DNA from: Halomonas korlensis
GTDB taxonomy: Bacteria; Pseudomonadota; Gammaproteobacteria; Pseudomonadales; Halomonadaceae
Assembly (NCBI RefSeq): GCF_900116705.1
Contig: NZ_FPBP01000003.1
Coordinates: 186,001 to 250,000, forward strand
Reading direction: 5' to 3'
Length of the DNA: 64,000 nucleotides
Shown: positions 3,952-37,880 of the stretch, piece after piece
How the letters are laid out: every line of letters starts with the position of its first letter
How positions within the stretch are numbered: position 1 is the stretch's first letter
Position numbers and translations under genes: made by a program
Notes under the pieces: generated by a model
The model's input: only the letters and a program-made list of their open reading frames with translations
What the model was told of the DNA's origin: nothing
Databases searched by the model: none

Positions 3952-5466
3952 ATGCTAGAAGCTACCGTCAAGAAGATTCTCCAGGCCCGGGTCTACGAGG
4001 CCGCCGTGGAAACGCCGATATCGCCGGCACCCTTTCTCTCGCGACGCTTCGATAACCAGATTCTGATCAAGCGCGAAGACCTTCAGCCGGTCTACTCCTT
4101 CAAGATTCGCGGCGCCTACAACAAGATGGCGCAGCTCAGCGAGGAGCAGAAGGCCAAGGGTGTGATCGCCGCCTCGGCGGGCAACCATGCCCAGGGGCTC
4201 GCCATGGCGGCCAAGCTGATGGGCGTCAAGGCGGTGATCGTGATGCCGCGCATCACCCCCGAGATCAAGGTCCAGGCGGTGCGCGCTCGCGGCGCCAGGG
4301 TGGTGCTAAAAGGCGACGCCTTTGCCGAGGCGGCGGCGCACGCTCAGGAGCTGATCGCGGAGCATGGCTATACCTATGTGCCGCCGTTCGACGATGTCGA
4401 CGTGATCGCCGGCCAAGGCACCATCGCTGTCGAAATCCTGCGCCAGCACAGCGGCCCGATCCATGCCGTATTCATCCCGGTGGGCGGTGGGGGCCTGATC
4501 GCCGGCATGGCCGCCTATATCAAGTACCTGCGACCGGAAATCAAGGTGATCGGCGTGGAAGCCGAGGACAGCGCCTGTCTCAAGGCGGCACTGGCGGCAG
4601 GCGAGCGGGTGGTGCTGGACCAGGTGGGCGTCTTCGCCGAGGGCGTCGCCGTGGCACAGGTCGGTGAGGCGCCTTTCGCGATCATGCGTGATCTGGTCGA
4701 TGACGTCATCACCGTCACCACCGATGAGATGTGTGCGGCGGTGAAGGACATCTTCGAGGACACCCGGGCGGTCGCCGAGACCTCCGGTGCCCTTTCTCTG
4801 GCCGGCCTCAAGAAATACGTCCAGCAGACCGGCGTCGAGGGCGAGACCCTGATCTGTATCAATTCGGGCGCCAATACCAATTTCGACCGCCTGCAGCATA
4901 TTGCCGAGCGTACCGAGCTTGGTGAACAGCGCGAGGCGATCCTCGCCGTCACCATTCCCGAGAAGCCCGGTAGCTTCAAGAAGTTCTGCAAGACCATCGG
5001 CAAGCGTATGGTCACCGAATTCAACTATCGCTATGCGGACCCCGAGAATGCGCATATCTTCGTCGGCGTGCAGGTCAAGCCAGGGGGGGAGGACCGCCAA
5101 GGTGTGATCGACAAGCTGTGCGATGCGGGCTATCCGGTGGAAGACCTGACCGATAATGAGCTGGCGAAGCTGCATATTCGTCATCTGGGCGGCGGTCGAC
5201 CGAAGGAGCATTTCGAGGAGGAGGTGTATCGCTTCGAGTTTCCCGAGCGCCCCGGCGCGCTGATGAACTTTCTTACCCACCTGCCGCAGAACTGGAACAT
5301 ATCCCTGTTTCATTATCGCAACCACGGCGCGGCTTATGGCCGGGTGCTGGTGGGAATGCAGGTGCCCAACGGCGATCGCTTACACGTCGAGGAGCACTTC
5401 GAGAAGATCGGCTATCGCTTTTGGAAGGAGAGTGATAATGCTGCCTACCACCTGTTCATGGCGTGA
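3952..5466 (+). CDS. ilvA: Threonine ammonia-lyase, biosynthetic
   Basis: IlvA is a PLP enzyme that deaminates threonine to 2-oxobutanoate, the first step to isoleucine. The catalytic domain carries the PLP lysine in PVYSFKIRGAYNKM, SAGNHAQG for substrate binding, and the glycine-rich phosphate loop PVGGGGLIAG. The C-terminal third holds two ACT-like regulatory repeats, beginning near EAILAVTIPEKPGSF and EEVYRFEFPERPGAL, which bind isoleucine and valine. The length of 504 residues matches the long allosteric class rather than the short catabolic TdcB type. The start ATG follows a weak GGACATCAGG ribosome site. No leader peptide or attenuator was seen upstream. Confidence 0.96.
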   Translation: MLEATVKKILQARVYEAAVETPISPAPFLSRRFDNQILIKREDLQPVYSFKIRGAYNKMAQLSEEQKAKGVIAASAGNHAQGLAMAAKLMGVKAVIVMPRITPEIKVQAVRARGARVVLKGDAFAEAAAHAQELIAEHGYTYVPPFDDVDVIAGQGTIAVEILRQHSGPIHAVFIPVGGGGLIAGMAAYIKYLRPEIKVIGVEAEDSACLKAALAAGERVVLDQVGVFAEGVAVAQVGEAPFAIMRDLVDDVITVTTDEMCAAVKDIFEDTRAVAETSGALSLAGLKKYVQQTGVEGETLICINSGANTNFDRLQHIAERTELGEQREAILAVTIPEKPGSFKKFCKTIGKRMVTEFNYRYADPENAHIFVGVQVKPGGEDRQGVIDKLCDAGYPVEDLTDNELAKLHIRHLGGGRPKEHFEEEVYRFEFPERPGALMNFLTHLPQNWNISLFHYRNHGAAYGRVLVGMQVPNGDRLHVEEHFEKIGYRFWKESDNAAYHLFMA

Positions 5467-5496
5467 GGTGAGCAGTCACTTACCGGCGAACTGCCG

Positions 5497-5530
5497 CATT
5501 AAGTATTGTTTTAAAATGTAATACTTAATG
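5497..5530. repeat. AT-rich perfect inverted repeat
   Basis: CATTAAGTATT at 5497-5507 is mirrored exactly by AATACTTAATG at 5520-5530 around a 12-base TTTTAAAA-containing loop. It lies 30 bases after ilvA and stands out as AT-rich in a GC-rich region. It could be a transcription factor operator for the small gene downstream or part of the ilvA 3' end. It has no terminal U-run, so an ordinary terminator is unlikely. Confidence 0.6.
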
Positions 5531-5659
5531 AGTAACGGTTGTCACGAGATTACCGTTGGCCCTATAGTTCCCCACGAATTGGACGCCATATTGATGATGG
5601 CCCGTCAACCTTCAGGTATTCCACCGACCGCTGCGGTCATGCCTCCCATGGAGTCGACA

Positions 5660-5755
5660 ATGAAGCGCAAGCCCGACCTGATCATGACACTGATGTTGCT
5701 GTTCGGCATCGGCGTGGTGGCGACCGGCTATGCCCAGACATTGGTGGGCAGCTGA
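5660..5755 (+). CDS. Small hydrophobic peptide, 31 residues
   Basis: A short reading frame encodes a 31-residue peptide: a basic N-terminus (MKRKPD), a single hydrophobic helix of about 18 residues (LIMTLMLLFGIGVVATGY), then a short polar tail. A GGAG ribosome site lies six bases before the ATG, and a strong hairpin follows at 5818. The topology suggests one inner-membrane span with the N-terminus in the cytoplasm. The frame stays open further upstream to 5528, but that extension shows no ribosome site. The function is not recognised. Confidence 0.5.
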   Translation: MKRKPDLIMTLMLLFGIGVVATGYAQTLVGS

Positions 5756-5817
5756 CCTCGGGGTAGCCAAGTAAATTTCCGCACCCTGTGCCCCTTGGCG
5801 AGTGTCACGAGACGCTA

Positions 5818-5848
5818 CCGACGGCCGATGTCACCCATCGGCCGTCGG
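5818..5848. terminator. Hairpin between the small peptide gene and ygfA
   Basis: A perfect 13-bp GC-rich stem (5818-5830 with 5836-5848) closes a five-base loop. It lies between the plus-strand small gene and the convergent minus-strand ygfA. Only CGTTTG follows on the plus strand, so the U-tract is weak. It may serve both directions as a terminator or as an RNA-stabilising hairpin. Confidence 0.6.
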
Positions 5849-5874
5849 CGTTTGTGGCCTATATACGATGGTTT

Positions 5875-6507
5875 TTAGGGGCGGACGACGCGTCTGTCGC
5901 TGACGATGGCGTCCAGGGGAACGTCCCAAGGCGCTACCGGCAGCCGCTCGACCCGCTGGCCGTCATGCGCCAGGCCGATCAACCGTGGGCGAGGCCCCGG
6001 GCGGCGGGTAAATGCCAGCGTGCGGTCATAGAAGCCGCCGCCCATGCCGATGCGCTGTCCGTGGTCATCGAACCCCACCAGCGGCAGCAGAATTAGGTCC
6101 AGCGCCCAGGCGGGAAGACGCCGTGCGCGATGGGCGCCGTGGCGTGTCTCGGGCTCGGCGATGCCGAAGCGATTGGTGACCATCGGCGTATCGGCATGAT
6201 AGTGGACAAACCACAGCGCATTGTGGGAGAGCGGACGCAGCACCGGCAGGTAGACACGGGCATGTCGGCGCCGAAACCAGCCGATCAGCGGGGTCGGGTC
6301 GATCTCGCCATCGTTGGGCAGGTAGAGGGCTACACGGCGGGCACGACGAACTTCCGGAAGCTGACGCAGATGCCTGCAGAGCCTTTCGGTAGCCTGACGG
6401 CGTTGTTCGCGGGTAAGCGCATGACGCCGACGACGCAACTCGCGACGCAGGTCATGGCGGGTCCTGTCGCAAGACAGGGGAGCGGCGGTTTCCTTCATGA
6501 TAGGCAT
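5875..6507 (-). CDS. ygfA: 5-formyltetrahydrofolate cyclo-ligase
   Basis: The enzyme uses ATP to convert 5-formyl-THF to 5,10-methenyl-THF. Family features are the basic N-terminal helix (RRELRRRRHALT), VALYLPNDGEIDPTPL, and the nucleotide loop GQRIGMGGGFYDRTL near the C-terminus. The two candidate starts are MPIMKET (6507) and MKETAAP (6498); the first is used here because it lies nearer the GGGGAAC stretch upstream. The gene starts only about 8 bases after the 6S RNA 3' end, the usual ssrS-ygfA arrangement of gammaproteobacteria, so it is probably read through from the 6S promoter. Confidence 0.93.
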   Translation of the reverse strand: MPIMKETAAPLSCDRTRHDLRRELRRRRHALTREQRRQATERLCRHLRQLPEVRRARRVALYLPNDGEIDPTPLIGWFRRRHARVYLPVLRPLSHNALWFVHYHADTPMVTNRFGIAEPETRHGAHRARRLPAWALDLILLPLVGFDDHGQRIGMGGGFYDRTLAFTRRPGPRPRLIGLAHDGQRVERLPVAPWDVPLDAIVSDRRVVRP

Positions 6508-6514
6508 GTCGGAT

Positions 6515-6702
6515 GAGGTTCCCCAGAGTGCCGCTGTCGTTCTGGCCCTTGAACCCATTGGTTCAAGGTGGGTGGCCGCAGCCGAACCGTCAGGCTTTCC
6601 GACGCACGGACATGCACACGGGTCCGGCTAGCATTTGGCCCCCTGGGTACTGCGCATAGGCTCGAGGGACGATAACGACTGGCAAACACCCCAGGGAACC
6701 CC
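6515..6702 (-). ncRNA. ssrS: 6S RNA (SsrS), RNA polymerase regulator
   Basis: On the minus strand the 3' half contains CACCTTGAACC, a short loop and GGTTCAAGG, which matches the most conserved stem of gammaproteobacterial 6S RNA. The 5' end GGTTCCC pairs with GGGAACC at the 3' end to form the closing stem, and the central part can fold as a long bubble hairpin. The length, about 188 nt, agrees with E. coli 6S (184 nt). The position between zapA and ygfA is the classical one. 6S RNA mimics an open promoter and sequesters sigma-70 holoenzyme in stationary phase. End points are good to a few bases. Confidence 0.93.
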
Positions 6703-6705
6703 TTT

Positions 6706-6733
6706 ATCCTAACAGAGCGTGAGGGGAGGCCAA
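6706..6733 (-). promoter_or_regulatory. Probable sigma-70 promoter for 6S RNA
   Basis: On the minus strand, TTGGCC (6733-6728) and TAGGAT (6711-6706) are separated by 16 bases and lie just upstream of the predicted 6S 5' end. The fit to TTGACA/TATAAT is moderate, but the position is right. Confidence 0.5.
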
Positions 6734-6750
6734 AGCAATGAATACCGGCT

Positions 6751-7050
6751 TCAACGTTGCGGGGTATCGACCAGGGCCTGCTCAAGGCGCTTGCTGAGCT
6801 GGCTCAGCTGCTGCTCGTCGCTGCGTTGCGCTTCCAGGGCCTCGAGGTAGTCATTGGTGATATTGAGCGCTGCCATGATGGCGATTCGCTCGGCCCCGAG
6901 CACCTTGCCGCGGGCATGAATGCCCTGCATGGCACGGTCCAGGTAGCGAGCCGAGCGCTCGAGCTTGTCCTGCTCATCGGGAGGACAGGCGATGATATAG
7001 CTATGTCCGAGCAGGGTGATTTCGGTAGTCGGCCGCGTGGCGTCGTTCAT
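6751..7050 (-). CDS. zapA: Cell division protein ZapA
   Basis: ZapA binds FtsZ at mid-cell and promotes bundling of FtsZ protofilaments. The 99-residue protein has the N-terminal beta strand/turn TEITLLGHSYIIACPPDEQDKL, typical of ZapA, followed by a long helix with heptad character ending in QQLSQLSKRLEQAL. An upstream in-frame ATG adds 23 unconserved residues; MNDATRPTTE is preferred on family length. The gene lies upstream of ssrS and ygfA on the same strand and is divergent from the UPF0149 gene ygfB, as in E. coli and Pseudomonas. Confidence 0.93.
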   Translation of the reverse strand: MNDATRPTTEITLLGHSYIIACPPDEQDKLERSARYLDRAMQGIHARGKVLGAERIAIMAALNITNDYLEALEAQRSDEQQLSQLSKRLEQALVDTPQR

Positions 7051-7242
7051 GACGGGCTCCGGTTCGGTCCGGTCGGGGCGATTGCCGCGCGTCCCGGCGT
7101 CCCGATGCGTTAACATCAATGGGTGTAAGCGATTCGAACGCCACTATAAGAGAGCCTTTCTCGGCCGGTCAACGCGCTCGCGCTGCCGCCGAAGGATACC
7201 ATCAAGGCGCTTGGCATGTGTGGCCTCATCACGGATTTTTCC

Positions 7243-7821
7243 ATGTCACTGATCAATGAACGCCTCGATTTTTCCACCGTCGCCGACCTGTTCCTGCTGC
7301 ATGGCAGCATGCAGTCCCCGGCCTTTCTCGATGGGCGGCTGTGCGCCGCGCTGGCGCTGCATGATATTTCTGTCGAGTCCTGGTTGCAGGAAGTCTGCTT
7401 GACCCTGGGCGTGGAGCAACCGCGCGACGAACAAGCCGCCGAGCGGTTCCTGGCCTGGCGCCGACAGACGCTCGACGCGCTCGCCGCGGTCGAGCTCGAT
7501 TTCGAGCCGCTGTGGCCAGACGAGCTTTTCACGCTGGGCGAGCGGGCGCAGGGGCTCAAGGAGTGGGCGCTGGGCTTTCTCGAGGTTGTCAGCGACGCCG
7601 GAGACACGCCCCGCGACGCCTGGTCGAGCGCCCTGCGCGAGGCCCTGACCGACCTGGAGGAAGTGGCCGCGATGGATACCGACATCGACGACAGCCCCGA
7701 GAACGAGAACGACCTGTTCGCACTGGCCGAGCATGCCCGGATGGCGGCCATGTTGCTCTACACCGAGCAACATCCCGGCATGCCCCAGGTCGAAAAGGCC
7801 GATGACCCGACCCACCACTGA
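7243..7821 (+). CDS. ygfB: UPF0149 family protein YgfB
   Basis: YgfB/YecA-type cytoplasmic all-helical protein of 192 residues (E. coli YgfB has 194). Recognisable features are the LHGSMQSPAFLDGRLCA region near the N-terminus, DELFTLGERAQGLKEWALGF in the middle, and the C-terminal DDSPENENDLFALAEHARMAAMLLY. The protein is strongly acidic. In Pseudomonas aeruginosa the homologue modulates expression of an AmpDh amidase; whether that holds here is unknown. It heads a plus-strand run ygfB-pepP-ubiH-ubiI, the conserved gammaproteobacterial order. The start MSLINERL was chosen over an ATG nine codons upstream by family length. Confidence 0.9.
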   Translation: MSLINERLDFSTVADLFLLHGSMQSPAFLDGRLCAALALHDISVESWLQEVCLTLGVEQPRDEQAAERFLAWRRQTLDALAAVELDFEPLWPDELFTLGERAQGLKEWALGFLEVVSDAGDTPRDAWSSALREALTDLEEVAAMDTDIDDSPENENDLFALAEHARMAAMLLYTEQHPGMPQVEKADDPTHH

Positions 7822-28918: not shown

Positions 28919-29822
28919 ATGCCTACCGCGTCACCAAGCACCCGCAGCCCGGTGAGCGCGACCCAGCCCAGCGGCTGTGTGCTGATTCTCGATACCGATG
29001 CCTCGCGGGTCCTGCAGACCAGTGCCAACCTGCCGGAGATACTGGGCGTACCGGTCGATGCGGCGCTCGCAGAAGGGCCGGGGCATGTACTGGGTCACGA
29101 CTTGGCCGGACACGCAGTCTGCAACTCGATGCCCGGCGCAGCGGCGAGCGGGTATTGGTCGAGATCGAGCCGCTGATCCGGCAAGGCAAGCAGCGGCTGC
29201 TGGCGACGTTGAATGCCTGGCTGATGCGCCATGGCGACAACTGGTTGGAGCTGTTTCGTGCCCAGGGGCTGGCGCTGGTGATGCCTGTGGCCTGCTGGCC
29301 GTGGCCTTTCCGCTGGGGGAGTCGCGGCGCGGCTGGCTGCTGCTGTTTCGCCCCGAGCAGCGCGAGACCTATGCCTGGGTGAGGTTGCTCGACACCGGGC
29401 TTGCGGCCGCCTGCCCGGGCGACACTCCCCTGCTCGGACAGTTGTTCAATCAGTGGCAGGAGGAGATCAGCGGTCATAGCGCTGCCTGGGAGCGAGTCGA
29501 GCGGCTGGCGGCCAGGGATCTCGCCGAGGATCTGGCGGTCATGGCCTCGGCCCAGCAGATCAACCGCCTCTATGCCAGCCTGCGCCAGGAACAGCAGGCG
29601 CTGGCCGAGGCCAACCGCCGGCTCGAGCACCTGGCCCATCACGACACCCTGACGCGGATATGGAACCGCTATCGCATCGAGCAGGCCATGGATGTCGAGC
29701 TGACCGCCGCCGAGCGCTATGCCCGGCCGGTGGCGCTGCTGCTGTTTGATATCGATCATTTCAAGCGCATCAATTATCGCGCCAAGGAGGCGGGCCGCGA
29801 CCGTCTCGAAGCCCAGGGGTAG
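28919..29822 (+). pseudogene. Remnant of a bacteriophytochrome-like diguanylate cyclase
   Basis: Pieces of one gene lie in three frames. Frame A (from ATG 28919) gives QPSGCVLILDTDASRVLQTSANLPEILG, a phytochrome PAS_2 start. A second frame from about 29120 gives RRSGERVLVEIEPLIRQGKQRLLATLNAWLMRH...ELFRAQGLALVM. A third gives a PHY-like part (GWLLLFRPEQRETYAWVR, WERVERLAARDLAEDL), a coiled coil and the start of a GGDEF domain (HHDTLTRIWNRYRIEQAM, LLLFDIDHFKRIN). That jumps straight to YRAKEAGRDR, the normal GGDEF C-terminus. The chromophore-binding GAF domain and the GGDEF motif itself are missing. At least two frameshifts and two deletions make a functional product very unlikely. Confidence 0.75.
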
Positions 29823-29956
29823 CATTTTTCTAATCAATAACGCCATCATGGGCGTAGAAAACGTCATTGTTTTGCATGACCGCGCTCATTGGCGTCGACA
29901 CGGCCAGGCGAACAGGCACGGCGTCGGGGCTTCATCGTTCACCGGGGAAGCGAATC

Positions 29957-32641
29957 ATGGTAACAGCCGAAGAGGCCTTTCGGCAGCTGGCCGACGGTCT
30001 CGGGCGCAGCGGCGCTGACGACTTCTTCAAGACCCTCGTCCAACGCCTGGCCACACTGCTGCGGGTCGATCACGTGATAATCGCCGAGGTGGTAGAGAGC
30101 GATCATGCCCAGACGCTCGCGGTGTGGTCCGGCGACAAGCTGAGGGCGAACTTTCGCTATCAATTGGCCGGCAGCCCCTGCGAACGGGTGGTGGGCCACG
30201 AGGCCTGCTTCTTTCCCGGTAATGTTTGCGGACTCTTTCCCGATGATACCCTGCTGCGGGCGCTGGCAGTCGAAAGCTACCTGGGAATGCCGCTGTATGC
30301 GGTCGACGGGTCGCCGCTGGGGCTACTGGCGGTGCTGCATGACCAGCCGATGCAGTTCGACCGTCTGGCACATGAAGTGCTGCGCATCGCTGCCACCCAG
30401 GCCGGCGCCGAGCTGGGCCGGCGTCATGCCGAACAGGCACTCACACACAGCGAGGCCGCCGCCCGCGAGAGCGAGCGGTGGCTCGACGCCCTGATGCACC
30501 AGCTACCCGGCATGGTCTATCGCTGCCACAACGACCGCGAGTGGACCATGCAGTTCGTCAGTCACGGCGCACTCGTGCTCACTGGCTACCGCCCCGAGGC
30601 CCTGCTCGGCAACCAGCCGACCAGTTACGGCCGGCTGATTCACCCCGGCGACCGTGACCGCGTCTTCGACGTGGTGCAGGATGCCGTGGCGCGCCATTCG
30701 CCCTTTCGCGTGATCTATCGCCTTGCCTCTGGTGACGGCACAACCCGTTGGGTGTGGGAACAGGGCCAGGCCGTCTATGCCGCCACCGGCGAGGTGGAGT
30801 GGCTCGAGGGTTTCATCATCGACATCACCGAGCAGCACGAGTCGCAGCGCATTCAGCAGGCAGTAGTGCAGGTCGCGACCACCGTGTCCACCCGGCTCGG
30901 CGATGACTACTTTCACCAGCTGGTACGCAATCTGGTCGAGATCCTCGAGGCCGATGCCGGGTTCGTGGCGACCCTCGATACGACTCAAGAACCGGCGACG
31001 ACCCTGACCACCCAGAGCCTGATGGTCGACGGCCAACGGCTCGACAACATCACCTATCCCATCGAAGGCTCGAAATGCGCCCAGGTGCTCGCCGGCCAGG
31101 AATGCATGAAGGCCGCGGGTGAAGCCGTCAGCCTGCCCGGCGACGCGCCCGGCCGTCAGCCGGCGCAGGCCTGGCTCGGCCGGCGGCTCGACAACGTCGA
31201 GGGCCAGCCCATCGGCGTGATGATGGTGCTGTACCGCCGCCCGCTGGAAGACAACAACTTTCCCACCTCGGTGCTGCGTATCCTCGCCACTGGGGCCGCC
31301 GCCGAGCTGGAGCGCCGCCGCGATCATCAGCGCATGCAACAGCTCGCCTATCGTGACATGACCACTGGCCTGCCCAATCGCATCAGCTTCGTGGAGGTGC
31401 TGGCCGAGTGGCGGGCACGCGCCGAGAGGCGTCAGCGCCCGCTGGCGATGCTGTGTCTCGACGTGCGACGCTTCAAGGAGATCAATGACACTCACGGCCA
31501 TCAGGTCGGCGACCAGCTGTTGGCGATGGTAGCCCGGCGCTTTCAGGGGGCGCTTGGTACCGGGGAGTTCCTGGCCCGCCTGGCTGGCGACGAGTTCGCC
31601 CTGCTGCTTGCCGATGCCGACGAGGCGGCAATTGCCGACGCGATGCGGCGCATGCCGGAAGCGCTTTCCAGCCCTATCGTGCTGGGGCATCGCAGCTTCA
31701 CGCTCGAGGTCAGCGTCGGTGTCGCCGAGTATCCCCGGGATGCCCTGACGCCGGACGATCTCTTCACCGCCGCGAGTATCGCGCTCTTTCATGCCAAGCA
31801 GCACGCCAAGCAGAGCGGCAACGGCAGTAGCCATTTCAATGATGCCATGGCGCGTGACCTTCATCACCGCCAGCGGATGACCGAGCGCCTCCTGGCGGCC
31901 CTAAAAGGTGACGGCCTGCAGCTTTGCTACCAGCCGCAGTTCGACCTGACCACCGGCGAACTGGTTGGCGCCGAGGCCCTGTGCCGCTGGCACGACGCCG
32001 AATGGGGCTGGGTCAGCCCGGGTGAATTCATTCCGTTGGCCGAGGAGCGCGGGCTGATTCGCCCGCTCGGTGACTGGGTGCTGCAGGAAGCCTGCCGCCA
32101 GCTGGTGGCCTGGCGCCATAGCGGGTTGCGCCTGCCAGGGCGGTTGTCGATCAACATCTCCGCGCAGCAGTTTGACGATCCGCAGCTCGCTGGGCATATC
32201 GCCGGGCTGATCGAGGACACTGAAATCTCATCGATCGCCCTTGAGATCACCGAGAGCGACTTCATGCGCGACCCCGAGCAGGCCGTGGACATTACCCGGG
32301 CCCTGCGCCAGGCCGGCTTCGCACTGTCCATCGACGACTTCGGTACCGGCTATTCGTCGCTCGCCTATCTGCGCCGCTTCGCCGCCGATGCGCTGAAGAT
32401 CGACATTTCCTTCGTGCGCGACATGCTCACCAGCCACCACGACCGCGCCATCGTCGACACCATCATTGCCATGGCTCGCGCCCTCGGGCTCAGGACCGTG
32501 GCCGAAGGTGTGGAAACCCGCGAGCAGGCCGCAGCGCTGGCCGAACTCGGTTGCGATCAGGCCCAGGGGTACTATTTCGGCCGGCCGGTGTCCGGCGTCG
32601 CCTTTTTCGAGCAGTGGGGCGCTACGGTGGGGCGGGACTGA
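29957..32641 (+). CDS. GAF-PAS-GAF-GGDEF-EAL cyclic-di-GMP signalling protein
   Basis: 894-residue soluble protein without membrane helices. A first GAF domain (about 10-165) has a conserved SPCERVVGHEACFFPG region; a PAS domain (about 180-300) follows, then a second GAF (about 310-460), GGDEF (about 470-625) and EAL (about 640-885). The cyclase motif reads AGDEF (residues 543-547) and there is no RxxD inhibitory site before it. The EAL phosphodiesterase part looks complete: EAL at 673, NISAQQF, EITESDF, DDFGTGYSSLAYL, KIDISFV, VAEGVET. Net activity may be c-di-GMP breakdown with a regulatory GGDEF. Start MVTAEEAF is preferred over an ATG 30 codons earlier because GGGGAAGCG precedes it. Confidence 0.9.
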   Translation: MVTAEEAFRQLADGLGRSGADDFFKTLVQRLATLLRVDHVIIAEVVESDHAQTLAVWSGDKLRANFRYQLAGSPCERVVGHEACFFPGNVCGLFPDDTLLRALAVESYLGMPLYAVDGSPLGLLAVLHDQPMQFDRLAHEVLRIAATQAGAELGRRHAEQALTHSEAAARESERWLDALMHQLPGMVYRCHNDREWTMQFVSHGALVLTGYRPEALLGNQPTSYGRLIHPGDRDRVFDVVQDAVARHSPFRVIYRLASGDGTTRWVWEQGQAVYAATGEVEWLEGFIIDITEQHESQRIQQAVVQVATTVSTRLGDDYFHQLVRNLVEILEADAGFVATLDTTQEPATTLTTQSLMVDGQRLDNITYPIEGSKCAQVLAGQECMKAAGEAVSLPGDAPGRQPAQAWLGRRLDNVEGQPIGVMMVLYRRPLEDNNFPTSVLRILATGAAAELERRRDHQRMQQLAYRDMTTGLPNRISFVEVLAEWRARAERRQRPLAMLCLDVRRFKEINDTHGHQVGDQLLAMVARRFQGALGTGEFLARLAGDEFALLLADADEAAIADAMRRMPEALSSPIVLGHRSFTLEVSVGVAEYPRDALTPDDLFTAASIALFHAKQHAKQSGNGSSHFNDAMARDLHHRQRMTERLLAALKGDGLQLCYQPQFDLTTGELVGAEALCRWHDAEWGWVSPGEFIPLAEERGLIRPLGDWVLQEACRQLVAWRHSGLRLPGRLSINISAQQFDDPQLAGHIAGLIEDTEISSIALEITESDFMRDPEQAVDITRALRQAGFALSIDDFGTGYSSLAYLRRFAADALKIDISFVRDMLTSHHDRAIVDTIIAMARALGLRTVAEGVETREQAAALAELGCDQAQGYYFGRPVSGVAFFEQWGATVGRD

Positions 32642-32897: not shown

Positions 32898-33902
32898 ATG
32901 TCGATTGGCTGGTGGCGGTGGAGTCTGGCCTTGCTGGTGGGGGTGAGTCTCGGTGGGTGGGCGCAGGAAAGGCCCGACGCGCAGTCACAATCCTCGAGCA
33001 GGAACGACGAGATACGCCTGGTGATTCCCTTCGGCCAGGGCGGGGCGACAGATGCGCTGTTTCGCTTGATCGTCAGGCCCGCAAGCAAGCGGCTGGGCCG
33101 GGATATCGTGCTGGAAAACGTCCCTGGAGCGGCCGCGACGCGTGGTGCCCAGCGGGTAAGAGAGGCAGCCTCGGATGGCCGTACCCTGCTGGCCAGCCAT
33201 CAGACGCTGATCCTGTCGTTCCTGTCGGGCATCTCGACCCATGATTTCCAGGCCTTCGTCCCGGTGGCACTGCTGATGCGCACGGTCAATATCCCCACCA
33301 CCTACCCGCAGCATGAAGTGCAATCAGCTGCCGAGTTCGCCGAGCATGTGCGATCGCAAGCGGAAAATAAAAGCGCCCGACCGGTGCGCATCGGCATGAT
33401 CAAGGGGTCGACCGATCATTTCTTCTGGTTGCAATTCCTGAAGGCGGTTGAAGTCGAGCCCGAGGCGGTACAGATGGTGGGCTATCCCGATACGGCCTCT
33501 CAGGTGGCGGCGTTGCTCGGCCGCGAGATCGATTTCTCGATGCTCAATCTACCCTCGGCGGGCGAGATGTACGCGAAGGGCATTCTCCATCCGCTGGGAG
33601 TCGCCGATGACCGTCGCCTCGCGGGCCTTCCCGAGGTGCCGACCCTTGAGGAGCAGGGCGTCGCGGTACTCAATACCACCAACCGGGGACTCTTTGCCCC
33701 GCTGGGCACGCCTCGCGAGCTGCTGGAGCCGCTGACCGCGGCCTTTGCCGACACCCTTCAGAACGACGCGCTGGCCGAGCGGCTGGAGCGTGAGTTCGGT
33801 ACGCGGGTGGATATTCGCCTGTTCGAGGACTACGCCGCCTATCTTTCCACGCGTACCCAGGAGCTCAAGGCGCTTGCCAATGAAGTGGAGTTCGTCCGAT
33901 GA
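32898..33902 (+). CDS. TTT/Bug-family periplasmic solute receptor
   Basis: 334-residue exported binding protein of the tripartite tricarboxylate transporter (TctC/Bug) type. A signal peptide (WWRWSLALLVGVSLGGWAQE) precedes the family core IRLVIPFGQGGATDALFRLI, LGRDIVLENVPGAAATRGAQRV, DGRTLL, and late PLGTPRELLEPLTAAFADTL. Such receptors bind carboxylates or related small molecules. No tctA or tctB membrane component is nearby. Its stop overlaps the ATG of a large membrane GGDEF-EAL protein by four bases (ATGA), so the two are translated as a pair. A sensory rather than transport role is inferred. GGGGAGGG precedes the chosen ATG. Confidence 0.88.
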   Translation: MSIGWWRWSLALLVGVSLGGWAQERPDAQSQSSSRNDEIRLVIPFGQGGATDALFRLIVRPASKRLGRDIVLENVPGAAATRGAQRVREAASDGRTLLASHQTLILSFLSGISTHDFQAFVPVALLMRTVNIPTTYPQHEVQSAAEFAEHVRSQAENKSARPVRIGMIKGSTDHFFWLQFLKAVEVEPEAVQMVGYPDTASQVAALLGREIDFSMLNLPSAGEMYAKGILHPLGVADDRRLAGLPEVPTLEEQGVAVLNTTNRGLFAPLGTPRELLEPLTAAFADTLQNDALAERLEREFGTRVDIRLFEDYAAYLSTRTQELKALANEVEFVR

Positions 33903-36900
33903 CTGTCCGACGGGCAACGAGAGGCCTCGCAAGCGCCGCGATGCCGTACAAGGCGTGTGACATCGCGCTGGAAACGGCGCTGGTGATGACGGCGGCCACC
34001 TTCATGGTGCTCGGCGTGTTGGGGCTGCTGACGTTCACGCTGGGCCTGGCCTATCCCCTGCGCAGTGTGCTGGTGCCCGATGCGGCGCTGGCGGCACTGT
34101 TGGGTGGCGCCGGGCTGCTGTCCGCCAGCTTTGGCTGGCATCGTGCCCGGTGTCTCGCCGGCGCCGTACTGATGTCATTGTTTCTCTTCTCGCTGTTTCA
34201 GGATGTCACCGCCCCTGAGAGCGCCTCCTGGCTGACCGGCCGTGAGCGCGTCGTGCCTTTAGCGGCTGTCGTGATGTGCGGCGTGGCACTGTGTTTGATA
34301 CTGGGGATTCGAGGCCGTACCCGGCGCTGGCTATGGGCGGGGATGGGGCTAACGCTGATCGGCCTTGGAGTGACAGCGCTGGGTGTGCTGCTGTTGGGTG
34401 GCGACAGTCGCGGGACCGAGTTCTATGTGTCATCGCCCGTGGCGGCCACGTTATGTGCCCTGATCTGCGGATTGGCCATGGGGTTGATAGCACTGCGCGG
34501 TGAGCGGCAGGCCCTGCAGGTGGGCAGGATGGCCATACTGGCAGGGCTGCTCGGCATTGTGCTGAGCGGCTCGGCCTGGTACCTGCTCAGTTGGCAGCAC
34601 CAGTACGACAAGCGCCAGCAGGCGAGCTTTGTACTCGACAACATTCAATTGAATACCGAACAGGCGATGGCCTCTCAGCTAGCGTTGATGCAGCGCATGG
34701 CCGAACGGCTGGATGCGGTGCAAGGTCGCTTCGACCAGACGGTGCTGGAGCGCGATGCTCGCAACTACCTTCGGGATGCCCCCGGGCTGCAGGCCATCGG
34801 GCTGCTGAACGCCCAGGGCGCCTGGATCTGGGGGCACGTTCGCGATGAACGAGCGTGGGGCTGGCTGGGGCGGACTCTGGTCGACCCTCGGGTAGAAGCC
34901 TGGCTCGAACTTGACTTTTACCAGCCGCGCTTGATGCTCCCCGATGAGGAGGTCCAGCAGATGGCGCTGATGGTGTTGCCGGTCGCAGCATCGCGCTACC
35001 AACTGCTGGCCAGCCTGGACATGGCCATCCTGTTAGATGAGGAGTTGCGGGTGCAGCTGGGAACGTACCTCGTGCGCGTGCGCCGTGGTGACCAGACGCT
35101 GCTCGAGATCCGTGCGCCGGGGCGTACGGGAACGCCGGGCGAGAGCCACTTCCCGCGCCTGGAGCAGCGCCATGTTGGCTTGCCGGGCGGCATCATGCTC
35201 ACCCTCGAGGTGTACCCTGATTCGGCACGGGACATGCTCGAGGCCGGCCTGGTACCCGGTGGCGTGGGGATCGCCGGGCTGATGCTGAGCTACCTGCTGG
35301 CCTACAGCCTGGGGCTGGCGCAGCTGGTACTGGGTCGTTCGCGTGAGCTCGCCGCGGCGCGCCGTTATCTGGAAGCGCAGCAGGACGTTCAGGCGTTGAT
35401 CGCCCGCGAGGCACCGCTGGACGAGACGCTGCGACGTATCTGCCGGATGCTTGAGCAGCAGATACCGGGGGCACTGTGTTCGATCATGCAGCGCTGTGGT
35501 GACAACCACCTAGTGCTGATGTCGGGTGACAGTCTGCCGCCAGCGTATCGTGAGGCTCTCGGTGAGATCGAGATCGGTGCCGATATGGGCGCCTGTGGCA
35601 GTTCGGCTTTCCTGCGCGAGACAGTCATCTGCGAGGATATTCTCGCGGATGCACGCTGGCAGGGGTTTCATGGCATTGCCGCCGCCGCCGAGCTGCGCGC
35701 CTGCTGGTCCTGCCCGGTGATCGCTTCGGACGATCGGTTGCTGGGTACCTTCGCCACCTATTATCGCGTCGTTGGCGGCCCCGAAGAGCGGGAGCTCGAG
35801 CTGTTGCACAAGGCGGCGGAGCTGGTGGCTCTGGCCATCGAGCGCCACCAGGATCGCCGCGCGTTGTGGGAAAGCGAGCAGCGCTATCGTTCGCTGTTCG
35901 CCTATAACCCCGATGCCGTGTTCTCGCTGGACCTGACGGGGCACTTCGCCACCGCCAACGCGACCTGCAGCGAGATCACCGGGTTCACCAACGAGGCGAT
36001 CATCGGGGCGCATTTTTCTGAGTTTATCCAGCCCAGCGACGTTGAATGGATCAAGGAGCGTTTCAAGACGGCCTCCGCGGGGGAGTCAACCCGTTATGAG
36101 CTGACGCTGATCGACCGCGGTGGCGACGAGCGGGTACTCGATCTCACCAACCTGCCTATCGTGGTGGAGGGGCGTATCGAGGGCGTCTACGGCATCGCCA
36201 AAGACATCTCCGACCGCAAGGTGTATGAAGCGCAGCTGTCCTACCACGCCAGCCACGATGGCCTTACGGGGCTGGCCAATCGCTCGCTGTTCGAGGACCG
36301 CCTCGCCCATGATTTCGCCCTGGCTCGTCGCCATGGCCACTGTCTTGCGGTGCTGTTTGTCGATCTCGACGATTTCAAGCCGATCAACGACAGTCTGGGT
36401 CATGCGCTGGGCGACAAGGTGCTGATCGAGGTGGCAAACCGGCTCGCCGCGGGTATGCGACCCGGCGATACGCTGGCTCGTCTGGGCGGTGACGAGTTCG
36501 TGGTGCTGCTCCCCGACCTGACTGACGCGCTGCAGGCCAGGCAGATGGCGGAGCGCCTATTGCCGATAGTCGCGCAACCCTACTGCATCGATGAACTGGA
36601 ATTGCACCTCACCTGCAGTATCGGTATCGCCGTGAGCGATGGAAAGACCGAGCATCCCATGATACTGATCCAGCAGGCCGACATGGCGATGTACCGGGCC
36701 AAGCGCCAGGGGCGCAATGCGTATCATTGGTTTACCCACGAGATTACCGCCAAGGTCAATGAACGCGTCGCGCTGCGCAACGAGCTGCAAGAGGCGATCG
36801 ACACGCAACAGTTGGAGCTGCATTACCAGCCGTTGCTGGATCGTGAGGGCGAGGTAGCGAGCGTCGAGGCGCTGCTGCGCTGGAAGCATCCTGCCAAGGG

Positions 36901-37534
36901 CTATATCCCGCCAGACGTGTTCATTCCGCTGGCCGAGGAAACCGGCCAGATCATGCCGATCAGCCAGTGGGTGCTGGAGCGCGCCTGTCTGGACATGGTC
37001 CACCTGGAAGCCACCGGCTACGGTACCCGACGCGTGGCGGTGAACCTCTCTCCGCTGCAGTTCCATCGCTCAGGCTTCCTGGCGACACTGAGTGAAACGC
37101 TCGCGGCCACGGGGCTGCCGGCCGAGCGCCTTGAGCTCGAGCTCACCGAGGGTATCCTGATGGACGATACCGCGGTCGCCATCAAGATCCTCCACGCGCT
37201 TCGCGCCATGGGCATCGAGGTTGCGGTCGACGACTTCGGCACCGGTTTTTCCAGCCTCAGCTATCTCAAGCACCTGCCCATCGGCAAGGTCAAGATTGAC
37301 CGCAGTTTCGTCAAGGAGCTGGCCCAGCGCGCTGACGACGCTGCTATCGCCCAGGGCATCATTTCCATGGCGCATCATCTGGGGCTCGGCGTGGTCGCCG
37401 AAGGCATCGAAACCAGCGAGCAGCATGACCTGTTGCTGCGTTACGGTTGCGATGCCTTCCAGGGTTTCCTGCTCGCCCGCCCGATGCCGCTTGACCGGCT
37501 GAAGTGCTTCCTGGCACAGCGTGTAGCGGTGTGA
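33899..37534 (+). CDS. Membrane-bound GAF-PAS-GGDEF-EAL cyclic-di-GMP enzyme with periplasmic sensor
   Basis: 1211 residues. Seven hydrophobic helices fill about residues 22-232, followed by a ~220-residue periplasmic region (SWQHQYDKRQQASFVLDN... to about 452), one more helix (about 455-480), GAF (about 500-650), PAS (about 660-775), GGDEF (about 785-940) and EAL (about 955-1205). GGDEF is intact at 863-867 and is preceded by RPGD at the right distance, a product-inhibition I-site. EAL starts at 990; VNLSPLQF, LELTEGIL, DDFGTGFSSLSYL, KIDRSFV and VAEGIET are present. Both activities are possible. Translation is coupled to the upstream periplasmic receptor, which could dock on the periplasmic region; that is inference. 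Confidence 0.9.
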   Translation: MTVRRATRGLASAAMPYKACDIALETALVMTAATFMVLGVLGLLTFTLGLAYPLRSVLVPDAALAALLGGAGLLSASFGWHRARCLAGAVLMSLFLFSLFQDVTAPESASWLTGRERVVPLAAVVMCGVALCLILGIRGRTRRWLWAGMGLTLIGLGVTALGVLLLGGDSRGTEFYVSSPVAATLCALICGLAMGLIALRGERQALQVGRMAILAGLLGIVLSGSAWYLLSWQHQYDKRQQASFVLDNIQLNTEQAMASQLALMQRMAERLDAVQGRFDQTVLERDARNYLRDAPGLQAIGLLNAQGAWIWGHVRDERAWGWLGRTLVDPRVEAWLELDFYQPRLMLPDEEVQQMALMVLPVAASRYQLLASLDMAILLDEELRVQLGTYLVRVRRGDQTLLEIRAPGRTGTPGESHFPRLEQRHVGLPGGIMLTLEVYPDSARDMLEAGLVPGGVGIAGLMLSYLLAYSLGLAQLVLGRSRELAAARRYLEAQQDVQALIAREAPLDETLRRICRMLEQQIPGALCSIMQRCGDNHLVLMSGDSLPPAYREALGEIEIGADMGACGSSAFLRETVICEDILADARWQGFHGIAAAAELRACWSCPVIASDDRLLGTFATYYRVVGGPEERELELLHKAAELVALAIERHQDRRALWESEQRYRSLFAYNPDAVFSLDLTGHFATANATCSEITGFTNEAIIGAHFSEFIQPSDVEWIKERFKTASAGESTRYELTLIDRGGDERVLDLTNLPIVVEGRIEGVYGIAKDISDRKVYEAQLSYHASHDGLTGLANRSLFEDRLAHDFALARRHGHCLAVLFVDLDDFKPINDSLGHALGDKVLIEVANRLAAGMRPGDTLARLGGDEFVVLLPDLTDALQARQMAERLLPIVAQPYCIDELELHLTCSIGIAVSDGKTEHPMILIQQADMAMYRAKRQGRNAYHWFTHEITAKVNERVALRNELQEAIDTQQLELHYQPLLDREGEVASVEALLRWKHPAKGYIPPDVFIPLAEETGQIMPISQWVLERACLDMVHLEATGYGTRRVAVNLSPLQFHRSGFLATLSETLAATGLPAERLELELTEGILMDDTAVAIKILHALRAMGIEVAVDDFGTGFSSLSYLKHLPIGKVKIDRSFVKELAQRADDAAIAQGIISMAHHLGLGVVAEGIETSEQHDLLLRYGCDAFQGFLLARPMPLDRLKCFLAQRVAV

Positions 37535-37571: not shown

Positions 37572-37880
37572 ATGAATTATTGTGCAAGAGTCGCGGGCCA
37601 CTGCGGCCGTTGCGAGGGCGAGCTACCCTTCGCTTTCACCATGGCCTTTCAACCGATCGTGGAACTGGCCGAAGCCAGGGTCGTGAGTTTTGAAGCGCTG
37701 GTGCGCGGGGTGAAGGGGCTGGCCGACGAGCTGGACATCGCGCTGATCGCCGAAGGGGTGGAAACACGCGCCGAAGCCTTGTGGCTGGGTCGCCTGGGGA
37801 TCACTCGCCAACAAGGGTTCTACTTTGCGAGGCCCTAGCTGGAATCGCTGGGCGAGGATCTTCGCTTCGTCCGCGCTTGA
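37572..37880 (+). pseudogene. Remnant of an EAL-domain phosphodiesterase with internal deletion
   Basis: The frame begins [46 protein letters not shown], the N-terminal part of a small stand-alone EAL domain with a cysteine-rich start. It then jumps to LADELDIALIAEGVETRAEALWLGRLGITRQQGFYFARP, the C-terminal part. About 150 residues holding the NFLPN, TE and DDFG motifs are missing. A TAG follows FARP, and the expected tail (LESLGEDLRFVRA) continues in the same frame to a second stop at 37880. The product could not catalyse. It lies 37 bases after the large GGDEF-EAL gene. Confidence 0.8.

Follow-up and report, generated by a model that had tools for sequence, protein, structure and literature searches.

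A TctC-type periplasmic receptor gene linked to a membrane GGDEF-EAL gene in Halomonas korlensis: a probable two-gene sensory unit for cyclic di-GMP

In a 64,000-nucleotide stretch of the Halomonas korlensis genome (contig NZ_FPBP01000003.1, positions 186,001 to 250,000; hereafter the window, corresponding to C15:186001-250000 of the 4.04 Mb genome G000 in our set), a gene for a TctC/Bug-type periplasmic solute receptor directly precedes a gene for a membrane protein with GAF, PAS, GGDEF and EAL domains. We consider it probable that the two constitute a sensory unit for cyclic di-GMP (c-di-GMP), in which a TctC-type receptor that formerly belonged to a transporter docks on the enzyme and shifts its GGDEF/EAL balance. 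The receptor would capture a small solute in the periplasm, probably a carboxylate, and in its closed state would dock on the periplasmic tandem-PAS domain of the enzyme; docking would shift the long helices running through the membrane to GAF-PAS, and this helix shift would in turn alter the balance of diguanylate cyclase (GGDEF) versus phosphodiesterase (EAL) activity. The receptor itself would stem from the receptor of a tripartite tricarboxylate transporter present in the same bacterial family, taken over in a single event and with its part in transport subsequently lost. This proposal combines the precedents of NspS-MbaA, BctC-BctE and LuxP-LuxQ; receptor docking, the ligand class and the sign of the c-di-GMP output are what we infer from it, and whether c-di-GMP would be raised or lowered cannot be told from sequence. 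The parts of the two genes are as follows.

32898..33902, + strand: TctC/Bug-type periplasmic solute receptor, 334 amino acids (Pfam, call of the open reading frame, ORF)
33887..33890, + strand: GGAG, which may be the ribosome-binding site of the ATG at 33899 (by eye)
33899..37534, + strand: membrane GAF-PAS-GGDEF-EAL protein, 1211 amino acids as read (1197 if Met15 is the start)
33941..33943, + strand: conserved start position, Met15, 38 bases past the receptor stop (comparison of pairs)
33953..34591, + strand: seven N-terminal helices, residues 19-231, with no convincing Pfam family (model, Pfam)
34592..35221, + strand: predicted periplasmic tandem-PAS/dCache-like domain, residues 232-441 (model, VIA-align, Foldseek)
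35225..35323, + strand: predicted eighth membrane helix, about residues 443-475 (model)
35411..35842, + strand: GAF domain, residues 505-648 (Pfam)
35909..36220, + strand: PAS domain, residues 671-774 (Pfam)
36248..36718, + strand: GGDEF domain with an I-site-like RPGD, residues 784-940 (Pfam, sequence)
36776..37483, + strand: EAL domain, residues 960-1195 (Pfam, sequence)

Both ORFs lie where the initial annotation, made from the DNA letters alone, had placed them. The upstream product belongs to the TctC family (PF03401; expectation value (E) 1.5e-22, 80.8 bits against a cut-off of 27) and has BugD, Bug27 and a terephthalate-binding protein among its relatives with solved structures. The initial annotation's complete TctC-type receptor is thus borne out, its signal peptide remaining a by-eye judgement of a hydrophobic, signal-peptide-like N-terminus. 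The pincer loop P-F-x-x-G-G-x-x-D is present as PFGQGGATD at residues 44-52, the Bug 'pincer' motif in PMC5812351 having A as its fourth letter. In the downstream protein, the GAF and PAS domains, the GGDEF domain with its I-site-like motif and the EAL domain that had been read from the letters were all recovered by Pfam and sequence inspection. RPGD sits five residues N-terminal to GGDEF and fits the RxxD I-site motif; together, the GGDEF and EAL signature motifs make the protein a candidate bifunctional-type enzyme. Both motifs recur in 27 of the 29 paired loci described below, the remaining two loci being broken. Interrupted reading frames occur in at least five assemblies (L109, L143, L145, L177 and L155, four of them paired; in L109 the receptor frame is interrupted besides the enzyme frame), and in these enzyme frames sequencing error and decay are indistinguishable.

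The gene arrangement recurs well beyond the window. Among 275 genomes of the family, with matches counted at E ≤ 1e-35, the N-terminal part of the enzyme matched at 129 places, spread over 101 genomes, and the receptor at 99, spread over 76; since the whole-genome searches scored 5 to 7 candidates per genome, absences are not absolute. A search of genomes for the same pair, as suggested by the initial annotation, yielded 29 pairs among the 129 enzyme homologs, in each case with the receptor upstream on the same strand, and because of this recurrence the adjacency is not due to chance. Spacing is tight in most pairs (27 within about 320 bases, 26 of these within 94; one at ~0.8 kb and one at ~4.2 kb). 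An ORF profile search in 120 enzyme loci recovered the same 29 pairs and no others, a TctC-like ORF being absent from the remaining 91. These 120 were fetched from the 129 rows and supplemented by 4 later ones; left out were G222, G013:C24, G212:C61, G250:C108 and, for G085:C42, the second piece, its first being included. The paired genomes fall into three genus groups, g1 (4 genomes, including H. jincaotanensis and H. shengliensis), g2 (1, Aidingimonas halophila) and g23 (24, including V. hamiltonii, V. stevensii and V. nanhaiensis), and all 35 loci from a scan of named genomes belong to Halomonas, Vreelandella or Aidingimonas. Of 390 genomes sampled across the order, 20 had a match to the enzyme N-terminal part (E ≤ 1e-20), and matches better than 1e-120 to a profile of the linked receptors were confined to the family, the six matching genomes outside it reaching just 1e-41 to 1e-47; a TctC-like ORF was absent from all 18 additional enzyme loci, of which 13 lie outside the family. 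A search of plasmid DNA gave no record covering 80% of the query, and the annotated matches listed were mostly EAL-type proteins. As a side observation, G070:C48 and G250:C51 (L107 and L108), which carry different genus codes, have in common a 52,533-base contig on which the enzyme stretches do not differ; the public records that match it are metagenome assemblies, and the sharing suggests binning contamination.

That the pair might be no more than accidental neighbors, the product of one ancestral insertion kept by drift, is an explanation that we regard as very improbable. It would account for the majority of enzyme homologs having no adjacent receptor, and for the finding that tblastn detected no receptor remnant in up to 3.5 kb upstream of the 91 unpaired enzymes. 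Linkage, order and strand, however, have been kept in three genus groups despite considerable divergence: apart from the sister species, linked enzymes share down to 36-43% and receptors 44-56% identity with those of the window. In an enzyme tree of 114 of the 120 rows (6 short rows were left out, two of them paired), the 27 paired rows fall within one group of 80 rows and require at least 7 state changes, compared with a mean of 24.5 after shuffling. In g23, the site downstream of an M20-peptidase-like gene holds enzymes both with and without a receptor. No TctC occurred among the 25 commonest of the 62 Pfam families upstream of unpaired enzymes, in a scan for other receptor types that took 88 of 158 gene calls and favored the nearest genes, and the three SBP_bac_3 genes seen there are all on the opposite strand.

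The receptor tree, in its enlarged form, comprised 28 of the 29 linked receptors (the broken G266 receptor was left out) and 61 of 69 unlinked rows (two G266 pieces were too short, and G259, G215, G072, G115, G258:C88 and G212:C75 were also left out). All 28 enzyme-linked receptors form one clade with a support of 97/99 before the enlargement, which was recovered in 98% of 200 bootstrap trees and stayed intact after addition of 40 further unlinked receptors (100 in the Shimodaira–Hasegawa-like approximate likelihood ratio test, by a quick method). None of the 61 unlinked receptors falls inside, and for these two reasons the gene pair is, as judged from sequence, an evolutionary unit. The simplest and most likely history is a single recruitment from a tctCBA operon, followed by joint inheritance with the enzyme, the receptor then being lost repeatedly; movement of both genes between lineages may have contributed. 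Fixed residues set the linked receptors apart from transporter-linked ones; at residue 102, for example, all 28 linked receptors have Gln, compared with Asp in 18 of 19 transporter-linked ones (Gln102 prints as 103 in the alignment, where that row has one extra residue). The linked receptors keep the pocket loop of the PMC5812351 motif, which makes a carboxylate-like ligand likely. Among the 61 unlinked receptors, 48 have TctA in the fetched stretch and 10 do not; in the other 3 the contig ends after a tctB-like gene recognized by eye. The same-subfamily receptors without TctA in the fetched stretch are L213, L214, L328-L334 and L336, several of which stand beside aldehyde dehydrogenase-like, amidohydrolase-like or thiamine-enzyme-like genes (by eye).

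A continued service of the linked receptor to a transporter elsewhere, for example the TctAB proteins of its nearest paralogue in G000, which is tctA-linked, located on contig C13 and 46% identical, would reduce the adjacency to mere co-expression. This would fit with nearest relatives that are transporter receptors, as indicated by the 48 with TctA nearby, and with the retained pocket motif, and yet we think it improbable. The six TctA genes of G000 each have an adjacent receptor-like gene of their own, five of which were recognized as TctC; the sixth, on contig C22 next to a TctB, matches TctC only weakly (E 0.0046). Thus, the circumstance that the initial annotation had named as fatal to its proposal, a tctAB locus using the linked receptor as its normal partner, was not found. 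Moreover, in 18 of the 29 paired genomes the linked receptor is the sole member of the subfamily seen at E ≤ 1e-35, with at most 7 candidates scored per genome, and the linked receptors are more diverged, with a mean identity of 55% among the 28 versus 78% among 19 transporter-linked ones. The earlier statement that tctA and tctB are missing near the pair held for tctA, since one TctA query detected no TctA-like ORF in the 120 enzyme loci including the window (E ≤ 1e-20), so that the linked receptor lacks the neighbor that marks a TctCBA system; tctB was not searched for there, and none of four neighboring window proteins was assigned to TctB by Pfam.

For the putative docking partner, we modeled the N-terminal part of the enzyme with AlphaFold from 32 aligned relatives (predicted local distance difference test 79, predicted template modeling score 0.67). 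The model has helices at residues 19-47, 60-78, 81-104, 120-135, 140-165, 180-200 and 210-273, the seventh of which leaves the membrane and leads into a mixed domain ending at about residue 441; a long helix, 443-490, then leads back into the membrane. The seven N-terminal helices and the periplasmic region of the initial annotation were thus reproduced in the model, with the addition of an eighth membrane helix (443-490) that had gone uncounted. In the predicted arrangement, PAS-like subdomains come after a long N-terminal helix and are flanked by membrane helices, which is the dCache/tandem-PAS layout. In VIA-align, residues 227-451 gave as top match the domain of a Vibrio GGDEF protein (2p7j, Z 14.3 over ~200 residues), and the other best matches, plant AHK4, PcrK, KinD and LuxQ, are likewise sensor domains of the tandem-PAS/dCache kind; LuxQ in complexes with LuxP aligned over about 190 residues with a root-mean-square deviation of about 3.5 (1zhh_B: Z 13.7, deviation 3.4, 188 aligned; 2hj9: Z 13.3). 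Searches at family level gave little: for the N-terminal 491 residues against Pfam, E was 0.11 in the window protein and at best 0.00094, in one of 26 members, the dCache_1 match was not significant (E 0.16 in one of 26 members), and Foldseek returned nothing for the periplasmic domain at E ≤ 0.001. It is well supported by the model that the periplasmic part belongs to the tandem-PAS/dCache fold class, without a closely related solved structure.

Several observations weigh against an obligatory, tightly fitted receptor–enzyme contact. The initial annotation had staked its proposal on enzyme homologs generally keeping the receptor, and taken as written this was contradicted: the receptor is absent beside 100 of 129, which means that in most species the enzyme does without it. 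Many dCache domains bind ligand themselves, and the periplasmic domain of the enzyme might do so as well. Co-variation of receptor and periplasmic region, proposed as a check, was seen as a correlation of distances and lacked specificity. For 26 pairs, Pearson coefficients with the receptor distances were 0.87 for the periplasmic, 0.90 for the membrane and 0.83 for the catalytic part; for the 19 pairs with an M20-peptidase-like neighbor they were 0.83, 0.88 and 0.75, respectively, and 0.76 for the neighbor. Given the neighbor, the partial coefficient was 0.71 for the periplasmic part, a value reached in none of 2000 permutations, and also 0.71 for the membrane part. By rank, co-variation did not exceed that of the neighboring gene (0.67 periplasmic, 0.78 membrane, 0.78 neighbor). 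These values indicate that the genes are inherited together and reveal no contact with the periplasmic part in particular. The relative rate of the periplasmic part did not differ between paired and unpaired enzymes (14 versus 22 comparisons, p 0.26, on hand-picked tree-neighbor pairs with some rows used twice and 22 of 23 unpaired comparisons usable), nor did the rates of the membrane and catalytic parts. A position-by-position contrast of paired and unpaired periplasmic domains singled out no interface residues; mean entropies (periplasmic 1.08 versus 1.39, membrane 1.13 versus 1.25, paired versus unpaired) were not used, as effective sizes were 11 versus 20.

No single finding speaks more strongly against tight co-evolution of an interface than the comparison of V. 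hamiltonii (L116) with V. stevensii (L137), whose receptors are near-identical, unless receptor and domain touch outside the altered surface. Across the receptor and enzyme genes, identity at the DNA level is for the most part 0.93-1.00, falls to 0.53-0.83 over ~540 bases that cover most of the periplasmic domain (about 5160-5700 of L116 versus L137, in the orientation of the enzyme gene) and then recovers; shorter dips (0.78-0.88) occur elsewhere, e.g., further down the enzyme gene. The periplasmic domain was probably replaced by recombination, the receptor not. Such a replacement, together with the dCache-like fold and with the 91 of 120 loci that have no TctC-like ORF and of which 83 nevertheless retain the EAL motif and 64 a GGDEF-type motif, would also suit direct sensing by the tandem-PAS domain, the co-transcribed receptor binding or buffering the same compound or tuning sensitivity without obligatory docking. 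We judge this to be rather unlikely, given that a generic scavenger hardly explains a single linked clade with none of 61 receptors from elsewhere inside. A more elaborate version of the docking proposal, which we put forward tentatively and with less confidence than docking as such, is that an undescribed seven-transmembrane-dCache family of c-di-GMP receptors captured the receptor once as a co-receptor and dropped it repeatedly, and that one lineage swapped its periplasmic domain and kept the receptor; the family would then contain natural switches between receptor-dependent and direct sensing for one and the same output enzyme.

Translational coupling through an ATGA overlap, another claim of the initial annotation, is doubtful: the overlap exists in the window and failed as a conserved feature. 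Among close pairs with a readable start, the 4-base overlap occurs only in the window, where GGAG lies eight bases before the overlap ATG, and in its sister G040, H. jincaotanensis. In 23 of the 24 other such pairs the enzyme starts 24-50 bases past the receptor stop, and in Aidingimonas 108 bases past it (one further close pair, L145, is broken at the enzyme start). The starts of these 24 pairs are mostly at a conserved M/V-P-x-x-x-R-D, equivalent to Met15 of the window enzyme. It follows that coupling by overlap is not conserved and close co-orientation is; by this comparison the overlap ATG is doubtful as the true start, and the genes are tightly spaced with either start, 33899 or 33941. 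Scans around the pair gave no promoter-like site and, for terminators, one weak terminator-like site each.

By analogy, the window pair is best read as working like NspS-MbaA with a receptor of an unrelated family. NspS binds polyamines and comes from a different family of binding proteins. Unlike it, the window receptor is a TctC protein (PF03401), and the window enzyme adds seven helices, GAF and PAS. A further precedent, a structural one, is LuxP-LuxQ of Vibrio, in which a periplasmic tandem-PAS domain serves as docking site for a binding protein; LuxQ, among the best structural matches noted above, is in contrast to the window enzyme a sensor kinase, and LuxP is in another binding-protein family. 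In ScrABC of Vibrio parahaemolyticus, the binding-protein-like ScrB accompanies the GGDEF-EAL protein ScrC; it differs from the window pair by another kind of receptor and an extra signal-making gene. TctCBA transporters provide the window receptor's own family, and TctA lies close to the majority of its near relatives found away from the enzyme, whereas no tctA-like ORF is found in the enzyme loci. What NspS-MbaA shares with the window pair is the combination of a periplasmic binding protein and a membrane GGDEF-EAL protein, described for Vibrio cholerae and Sinorhizobium meliloti in PMC8967002 and PMC9993111, as well as the linkage of receptor gene and enzyme gene, seen here in 29 of 129 homologs with the window pair included. 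According to PMC8967002, liganded NspS keeps MbaA a cyclase, and free MbaA is a phosphodiesterase. In Bordetella pertussis, the TctC/Bug receptor BctC likewise passes a signal to a sensor in the membrane, as given in PMC5812351 and PMC9602780; it differs in being part of a bctCBA transporter and in signaling, within BctC-BctDE, to the histidine kinase BctE rather than to a c-di-GMP enzyme.

Within the binding-protein clan, SBP_bac_3 alone is treated as a domain studied in c-di-GMP networks in PMC8846402, and according to PMC9602780 c-di-GMP enzymes can be acted on by binding proteins. A full-text literature search found no evident report of a TctC receptor with a GGDEF/c-di-GMP enzyme; a Halomonas study on DgcY/HhmR proved to be unrelated, and the main review of binding-protein signaling, which the search did not cover, may contain one. 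Orphans that lack a transporter are numerous among TctC/Bug receptors, and a signaling role has been proposed for them (PMC5812351). The present pair, a defined receptor clade tied to one c-di-GMP enzyme family with receptor-less close relatives as natural controls, turns the idea of orphan Bug proteins as signaling subunits into a directly testable question; if the proposal is true, the inputs known for c-di-GMP enzymes, which are few, would gain a new family of receptors.

Further c-di-GMP-related genes surround the pair. Directly upstream, at 29867-32641, lies another GAF-PAS-GGDEF-EAL protein (924 amino acids, TTG start as listed). In the sister species the upstream neighbor of the pair has the opposite orientation, which makes it probable that the pair forms a unit of its own, separate from this gene. 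A phytochrome-GGDEF gene fragment at 28998-29822 comprises part of the PHY domain and the first 47 of 161 GGDEF positions, followed by a stop, and just downstream of the pair, at 37572-37838, an 88-codon EAL-like remnant has the start and end of EAL, with the middle missing (by eye). In H. shengliensis (L110), a second binding-protein/cyclase pair is located between receptor and enzyme (oriented 4511-7383), consisting of an NMT1-like receptor gene that overlaps by 4 bases the gene for a phosphonate-binding-domain-PAS-GGDEF protein.

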